Of a stretch of 35,908 bases of DNA, positions 18,718 through 20,072 are shown in pieces (within the stretch, counting starts at the first letter, position 1; every line of letters begins with the position of its first letter). Under the pieces are notes generated by a model, which saw nothing but the letters and a program-made list of their open reading frames with translations, did no database searches and was not told the DNA's origin. Source of the stretch: Aeropyrum sp. (lineage in GTDB: Archaea; Thermoproteota; Thermoprotei_A; Sulfolobales; Acidilobaceae); assembly GCA_015523465.1 (NCBI GenBank), contig WAKF01000036.1, positions 1 through 35,908 on the forward strand. Reading direction: 5' to 3'. The position numbers and the translations under genes are program-made.

Positions 18718-19179
18718 ATGGCAGGCTTGGGGAGCGTCAGCAGGCTACGGGCGGCTCAGCCCTGGATCGTGGTTAGCGCTGTCGGCCACAGTAACGTGAG
18801 GGCCACCCACAAGTCTACATTCGAGGTCACAAGGGACGACTACCTGACTCCGAGGGGTGACTGCATTATTGGTATCAGGGCTGATAAGGCTCCGAAGGAC
18901 CTGCCAGGCTGGTTTAAGGAGGAGGCTAGGAGGGGCGGCATAATAGTGGCGGTGCTGTGCTCAGAAGGGATCTGCGACGCCATCGCAGGCAAGGGTGACC
19001 CCCGGATGACGTTCTCTGACGAGAGAAGGATGGTGTTCCGGCGTAGCGATTACGTGGGCCCCGAGACGGTGATGATTAGGGCTTCTAAAGCGGCTAGAGA
19101 TATTAGGAGGGATCTCATAGAGAAGCTTAAGAGCGGTGCCGAACTGAAGGTATACCTAACCGTCATACCCGTTGAGTAG
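18718..19179 (+). CDS. DUF371 family archaeal protein
   Basis: 153 residues. It shows the DUF371 core: GHSNVRATHKSTFEVTRDDYLTPRGDCIIGIRADKA, then IVAVLCSEGICDAIAGKGDPRMTFSDERRMVFRRSDYVGPETVMIRASKAARDIRRDLIEKL. The family has no established function that I know of; it is soluble and widespread in archaea. The first 16 residues (to QPW) are not part of the core, so GTG at residue 18 may be the true start. The gene after it, 14 bases downstream on the same strand, is the radical-SAM homologue, so the two are probably one operon. Confidence 0.85.
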   Translation: MAGLGSVSRLRAAQPWIVVSAVGHSNVRATHKSTFEVTRDDYLTPRGDCIIGIRADKAPKDLPGWFKEEARRGGIIVAVLCSEGICDAIAGKGDPRMTFSDERRMVFRRSDYVGPETVMIRASKAARDIRRDLIEKLKSGAELKVYLTVIPVE

Positions 19180-19193
19180 GGGGTAGCGGAGCT

Positions 19194-20072
19194 GTGAGTG
19201 GCGGAGCGGAGTTGATAGAGGTGAACTCTATAGGCGTTTCTACAGTGGAGTCGGTACCCCTCTTCCACTACAAGCCTGGGGGCTTGGTGGGGAGACTTGT
19301 AGCCTACCCCTCTCGTTGGATTGAAAGTGAGTGTGACCTCCCCTTTGAAGTGTGTGAGTGGCTATCCTCTCCAAGGAGCTACCCTGGCTTCCTGGTTAGG
19401 CTCTCAGCCGTGAAGGCCTTCTTCGAGAGGTGGAGGGTTGACGCGGTGGTCTTAGACGGCGTGGAGACTTGGAGGTTTACAGGTAGCCTCAGAATGGGCA
19501 TGCCTCTGGTGGCTAGGAGCCAGCTCCTCTTAGACTCTAGGAGTCTTGTAGGGCTAGACGCCCTAATAATAGACCTTGTAGGCTCGCGCTCCAGAGTAGA
19601 TAGGCTGTCTATGCTGGTAGAGAGGGCTAAAAGCGAGGGGCTATGGGTTGAAGTCAACATGTACCTTCAATGGGCTGACGCGAGGGAGGTTGACGAGGTG
19701 CTCTCAGCGCTTAGGGGCTCGAAGGTGCCGTTGCACATTCACATAGCAGACCCCCAGGGCGGGGGGCCCGTAAGGAAGCTTTACATTAGGGCGTCATCAG
19801 CCTATTGGCCCGTCTACGTGCATGCCGGAGTATTCAGCGAGGTTGACACCAAGTGCCCCAGGTGCGGGACGTACGTGGCTTCGAGGTATAGGAGCTTCCT
19901 GACGAGCCTTGCACTCAAAGAGGGTGGTAGGTGCCCGTCATGCGGAGAGCCGTTGCCCTTCATAGGACCATATAGGAGGAAGACGGACGAGCTGGTGGTA
20001 AGGACTATGGGGTCTGGGGCCGTCTTCATGGACCCTAGGCTCTTTGGGGGCATCTCAGCGCGTAGAGGTTAA
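19194..20072 (+). CDS. Degenerate radical-SAM homologue of the AmmeMemoRadiSam partner enzyme family
   Basis: 292 residues. The N terminus PLFHYKPGG aligns by eye with the PLYHFxPGS lead-in of the radical SAM enzyme of the AMMECR1/Memo system. The cluster site is C47-D-L-P-F51-E-V-C54, i.e. C-x3-F-x2-C: the canonical C-x3-C-x2-C with exact spacing, but with Phe (codon TTT at 19344-19346) in place of the middle Cys. Middle landmarks (VDAVVLDGVETW, LDALIIDLVG, LWVEVNMYLQW, LHIHIAD) follow the partial TIM-barrel order. The C terminus keeps YVHAGVF and a zinc ribbon C221/C224/C247/C250. It is probably co-transcribed with DUF371. It probably cannot bind a normal 4Fe-4S cluster; a scaffold role, an altered cluster, or a base error are possible. 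Confidence 0.7.
   Translation: MSGGAELIEVNSIGVSTVESVPLFHYKPGGLVGRLVAYPSRWIESECDLPFEVCEWLSSPRSYPGFLVRLSAVKAFFERWRVDAVVLDGVETWRFTGSLRMGMPLVARSQLLLDSRSLVGLDALIIDLVGSRSRVDRLSMLVERAKSEGLWVEVNMYLQWADAREVDEVLSALRGSKVPLHIHIADPQGGGPVRKLYIRASSAYWPVYVHAGVFSEVDTKCPRCGTYVASRYRSFLTSLALKEGGRCPSCGEPLPFIGPYRRKTDELVVRTMGSGAVFMDPRLFGGISARRG

Follow-up and report, generated by a model that had tools for sequence, protein, structure and literature searches.

The window, a 35,908-nucleotide stretch from an Aeropyrum genome (1.80 Mb, 92 contigs), carries at 19194..20072 (+ strand) a gene with a GTG start for a protein of 292 amino acids, P0001, which we read as a pseudo-radical-SAM protein and a paralogue of the AmmeMemoRadiSam radical-SAM enzyme. 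Hereafter SHORT denotes the short paralogue, the window gene included, and LONG the canonical, intact AmmeMemoRadiSam paralogue; f1 is the window's family, Acidilobaceae, and f3, f4, f5, f7 and f10 are other families. SHORT would be an ancient paralogue of the TIGR04337 enzyme from which, in f1, the [4Fe-4S]/SAM site has been lost, a loss that would make the usual radical-SAM chemistry impossible; very probably it works without canonical radical-SAM chemistry. Tentatively, and with a chance that we put just short of even, we propose that it is a non-radical partner subunit in the AmmeMemoRadiSam pathway.

Translation of the window ORF gave ...RWIESECDLPFEVCEWLSS..., with the loop ECDLPFEVCEW. 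The degenerate cluster loop C47-DLP-F51-EV-C54 (C47-x3-F51-x2-C54; 19332..19355, + strand), which the initial annotation had reported with Phe in the middle, was confirmed in this way, F51 being encoded by TTT at 19344-19346. That annotation had also held the exact spacing to be a special feature, and comparison with orthologues spoke against this. It can be seen that, first, CX3CX2C, the functional signature of radical-SAM proteins, occurs in P0001 and its aligned f1 relatives in none of 37 cases, so that the suspected loss of the cluster motif is real; the G003 orthologue, 56% identical to P0001, has CSAPFEPC. Secondly, the two remaining cysteines in f1 are separated by 2, 3, 5, 6, 7, 8 or 10 residues (L135, for instance, reads CSDFDIC), and 4 of the 37 members have no pair at all. 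Thirdly, all six CX6C members of f1 have Phe (four members) or Leu (two) as the middle residue. By alignment column, 97% of the f1 clade retain C47 and 85% retain C54, the latter being absent from several members. The distance from the P of the PGG anchor to the first Cys was 12 residues in intact homologues versus about 17 or more in the f1 members counted, which means that the loop from strand 1 to C47 is longer by about 5 residues or more. Because the loop before C47 is enlarged and the Cys spacing is free, F51 cannot be interpreted as the relic of a one-base change. The idea that F51 is a substituted middle Cys at otherwise intact spacing was ruled out by the enlarged loop, across which the cysteines have no clear one-to-one correspondence. 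The alignment indicates that the f1 cluster loop has been remodelled rather than altered by a single Cys swap.

Orthologues in other families place this loop at the end of a graded series: the motif is intact in f3 and f4, only the first Cys is gone in f7 and f10, where CX2C is kept, and the loop is remodelled in f1. A single divergent short homologue from f5 (L117, on contig C16 of G061) has CATCPW and no first Cys; it sits on a long branch and its position in the tree is unsure.

The initial annotation had further assigned P0001 to the AmmeMemoRadiSam family by its lead-in, barrel order and zinc ribbon. Column by column, the lead-in E19-x2-P22-L-x-H25-x2-P28-G29 and the CxxC...CxxC ribbon match the canonical paralogue. 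The lead-in reads E19-S-V-P22-L-F-H25-Y-K-P28-G29 in P0001 (19248..19280, + strand) and corresponds to E82/P85/H88/P91/G92 of that paralogue; the C-terminal ribbon C221/C224 ... R231 ... C247/C250 (19854..19943, + strand) is unchanged in every member as well as in the canonical paralogue. The predicted barrel order agrees as well. The family recognition by eye was sound and went beyond what the standard models return. With P0001 as query, a Pfam search matched no radical-SAM model, and the sole COG1180-type match in NCBIfam was TIGR04337 at 17.2 bits, far below the curated cut-off of 220 and confined to the zinc ribbon. The LONG protein of the same genome (contig C5, L068:10570-11694) scored 333.6 bits against this model, and the intact f3 and f4 orthologues match Radical_SAM, Fer4_12 and TIGR04337. 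No Pfam or NCBIfam model covers the SHORT family of f1. Since CX3CX2C is the mark by which radical-SAM proteins are usually identified, f1 SHORT proteins, which reach the cut-off of none of the curated models checked, would receive the annotation 'hypothetical'. A scan of public contigs with the single protein returned no match; with the genus alignment it returned nine loci (one Aeropyrum, five Acidilobaceae).

The AlphaFold2 model of P0001 (pLDDT 92.6, pTM 0.91) has a partial radical-SAM barrel followed by the ribbon, in the order beta1-alpha1-beta2-...-beta6-alpha6, with alpha2 shortened and alpha3 missing. At the end of beta2, where intact members have GGEP, only the remnant D88-G-V-E91 is found (19455..19466, + strand): G89 is conserved in 88% of the f1 clade, the second G is replaced, and E91 stands at 64%. 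A direct sequence search of the PDB with P0001 gave no match, and a search with the family profile gave marginal radical-SAM matches. Fold searches in the PDB with the P0001 model were also weak, returning radical-SAM structures at high probability but with E of about 0.01 and TM of about 0.4 (BlsE: probability 1.0, E = 9e-3), while the model of an intact f4 orthologue matches the radical-SAM protein QueE with E = 7e-8. The fold argument therefore leans mainly on the intact orthologues. On the partial beta-alpha barrel of the model, P0001 belongs to the radical-SAM superfamily by descent. QueE, NrdG2 and BlsE, the closest solved folds or profiles for intact or degenerate members (identity 13-20%), all retain the cluster and the SAM site.

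Of 98 relatives, 79 yielded homologues, the canonical paralogue counted in. SHORT, assigned by best E-value, is present in all 25 f1 genomes that are at least 90% complete. LONG with C-x3-C-x2-C is present throughout, and every canonical paralogue carries the motif. In a quick tree search with the motif columns removed, SHORT and LONG formed separate clades (SH-aLRT 100). Upstream of SHORT, in f1, f3, f4 and f10, stand divergent genes for RNase Z, a THUMP/TrmG10-type methyltransferase and PRPP synthetase; the downstream gene is LONG, one for a GPN-loop GTPase or a TFS-like gene. The names RNase Z, TrmG10, PRPP synthetase and GPN are what we take these genes to be from reading their sequences rather than from profile matches. 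This common synteny indicates one orthologous locus across families, and in the tree the SHORT genes form a group that is monophyletic apart from the canonical enzyme. The tree requires at least three motif changes, but a history with one loss is statistically acceptable (p-AU 0.31); one to three losses are all compatible with the data. The N-terminal Cys region of LONG (CxxCxxxC...C) is found in the f4, f10 and most f7 SHORT proteins and is absent from f1 and nearly all f3. Beyond the order only LONG-like matches were obtained, the best at 121 bits versus at least 264 for the f3 and f7 SHORT proteins. Elsewhere in the order there are families in which the canonical enzyme occurs and SHORT does not, which indicates that SHORT is not needed for the enzyme in general.

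SHORT shares E19, P22, H25, G29, E153, H181, T219, C221, C224, R231, C247 and C250 with LONG, in which E153 corresponds to E237 and H181 to H271. E153, found in all members, lies on predicted strand beta5 together with Y157 (91% in f1; 19650..19664, + strand). The segment from H181 on strand beta6 through GGGP (189-192) to Y208-x-H210 spans 19734..19823 (+ strand), and both H181 and H210 are invariant in the main f1 clade, with R34, Y157 and GGGP nearly so. In all, conservation in the f1 clade reaches 90-100% at about ten polar positions, and R34, Y157, H210 and GGGP are absent from the canonical enzyme. A basic residue at position 108 (R108 in P0001) is specific to SHORT: K or R dominates in every SHORT family, versus V in LONG. 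Between close pairs, dN/dS was 0.07-0.16 for SHORT and 0.01-0.08 for LONG, and SHORT evolved faster in all six pairs compared. These values indicate a working protein that is under purifying selection, if freer than the LONG enzyme.

SHORT and LONG are neighbours in one orientation at 30 loci, each directly following the other on the same strand, and their ORFs, taken from the longest start, overlap in 29 of these; overlapping frames are found in most f1 genomes outside Aeropyrum and two other groups. In Aeropyrum and in genus g6 the genes are unlinked; three g4 genomes have them near each other but on opposite strands. Memo (TIGR04336), AMMECR1 (TIGR04335) and the canonical enzyme are all present in the window's genome, Memo and AMMECR1 on contigs other than that of the window. 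Because LONG is also present there, this co-occurrence does not discriminate for SHORT. Among the loci examined, neither AMMECR1 nor Memo was seen adjoining SHORT. The three-gene system may be incomplete in some relatives (G053, G060, G070 and G079): among these, no AMMECR1 was detected in G053, an f7 genome that is 99% complete in 2 contigs, or in three f4 genomes, and Memo was present, in G079 as a short fragment only. The next gene downstream of SHORT in the window encodes an archaeal TFS/RPB9-like zinc-ribbon protein (PF02150; 20212..20484, + strand), and such a gene follows SHORT, or SHORT-LONG, in many f1 genomes. The consistent neighbours of SHORT are the canonical paralogue and the archaeal TFS/RPB9-like gene. 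In two f7 genomes, SHORT (L064 7839, L065 7798) follows a gene resembling lipoate-protein ligase.

The gene coordinates agree with the earlier observation that SHORT begins 14 bases after a DUF371 gene (PF04027, Pfam E = 4e-51; 18718..19179, + strand). The joint action that had been suggested from this adjacency found no support when adjacency was looked for across genomes. Nearly all genomes of the order have DUF371 (89 of 96), and the head-to-tail arrangement with SHORT occurs in the window and G003 only, that is in 2 of about 39 genomes. In the two other genomes of the genus, which we take to be Aeropyrum pernix and A. camini, DUF371 is found past TFS on the opposite strand; in complete f1 genomes outside Aeropyrum (G009, G024, G032) it lies hundreds of kb from SHORT. 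DUF371 is probably not a functional partner of SHORT. Solved relatives of DUF371 are 3cbn (MTH639) and 7y7n, and the listing gives neither a function.

In the partner reading, SHORT still has the fold of the enzyme, its lead-in loop and zinc ribbon, and several invariant polar residues in the barrel. Through the common lead-in and ribbon it would bind the target of LONG, or the protein carrier of that target, and would position or hold it for the active LONG enzyme and for Memo/AMMECR1-type proteins. It would enter a physical complex, share a substrate with LONG and carry no cluster of any kind. SHORT resembles the AmmeMemoRadiSam enzyme (TIGR04337, COG1180 type) in ExxPLxHxxPG, the partial barrel order, the E153/E237 and H181/H271 pairs and the CxxC...R...CxxC ribbon, and the two often occur as overlapping genes. 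It differs in the absence of CX3CX2C and of the N-terminal Cys region, in the eroded GGE, in being about 70-80 residues shorter and in scoring only 17 bits against the 220 that the enzyme's model demands; both proteins coexist in the same genomes. The haloarchaeal 'pseudo-SAM/SPASM' protein TIGR04347 of NCBIfam is, judged by its name only, a precedent for a pseudo-radical-SAM protein; it is of SPASM type, P0001 does not match it, and it came up as no more than a weak match of an intact f3 member. In the open-access literature we found no function study of AmmeMemoRadiSam, DUF371 or pseudo-SAM proteins and no paper on the SHORT family. PMC11048331 describes the radical-SAM heterodimer Dph1-Dph2 of diphthamide synthesis, a pair of paralogous subunits with non-canonical Cys motifs that jointly cleaves SAM, and this offers a precedent for how SHORT and LONG might work. 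Dph1-Dph2 is unlike SHORT-LONG in belonging to another protein family, in its reaction and in having a cluster on each subunit.

Several observations stand against the partner reading. Aeropyrum, g6 and three g4 genomes lack the arrangement with both paralogues in succession on one strand; SHORT outpaces LONG in the six pairs, and other families have LONG without SHORT. In addition, Y157, H210 and GGGP are newly invariant in f1, and a mere scaffold would not need them. The main rival is a re-purposed barrel that binds a ligand or metal of its own and possibly performs non-radical catalysis, independently of the canonical paralogue, which we consider possible if doubtful. Such a barrel may use R108, E153, Y157, H181, H210 and often C47/C54. 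The gene overlap in most genera favours the partner reading, whereas the residues that became invariant and the lack of linkage in Aeropyrum and g6 favour the re-purposed barrel, as does the strong purifying selection. However, the canonical enzyme already has E153, H181, H25, E19 and the ribbon, which as inherited features could equally serve a common target, and the missing C54 in several members together with the variable Cys spacing makes a fixed Cys-based metal site unlikely. A related scenario, in which the cluster was lost in one archaeal order and a new non-radical site arose in the old barrel (R108/E153/Y157/H181/H210), with orthologues showing the intact, one-Cys-lost and remodelled stages, seems rather unlikely to us.

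We give little credence to a reading in which C47, C54 and a third ligand other than Cys (e.g. H25) hold an unusual Fe-S cluster and radical-SAM or redox chemistry is kept. The high conservation of the two cysteines would fit it, and Dph1-Dph2, according to PMC11048331, cleaves SAM with the help of non-canonical Cys arrangements; yet the spacing of 2-10 residues, the four members without a Cys pair, the eroded GGE and the failure of P0001 to match any Pfam or NCBIfam radical-SAM model beyond the zinc ribbon all argue otherwise. A base error or a decaying pseudogene hardly deserves consideration: TTT is one base away from TGT, but the other f1 members, none of which has the three-Cys motif, the Phe or Leu in six of six CX6C members, the dN/dS values and the retention of the gene in all near-complete f1 genomes refute both.

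SHORT is under selection though its three-Cys site is gone, and is a good test case for 'dead' radical enzymes. With the active paralogue retained, usually as an overlapping gene, it allows one to ask why a radical-SAM fold persists after its chemistry is lost, and it also bears on what the AmmeMemoRadiSam system does. One genome, G027, has two SHORT genes, L058 on contig C258 and L057 on contig C105. The SHORT gene on C258 (4.9 kb) is nearly identical to that of G022, which belongs to another genus, and this contig is probably mis-binned.
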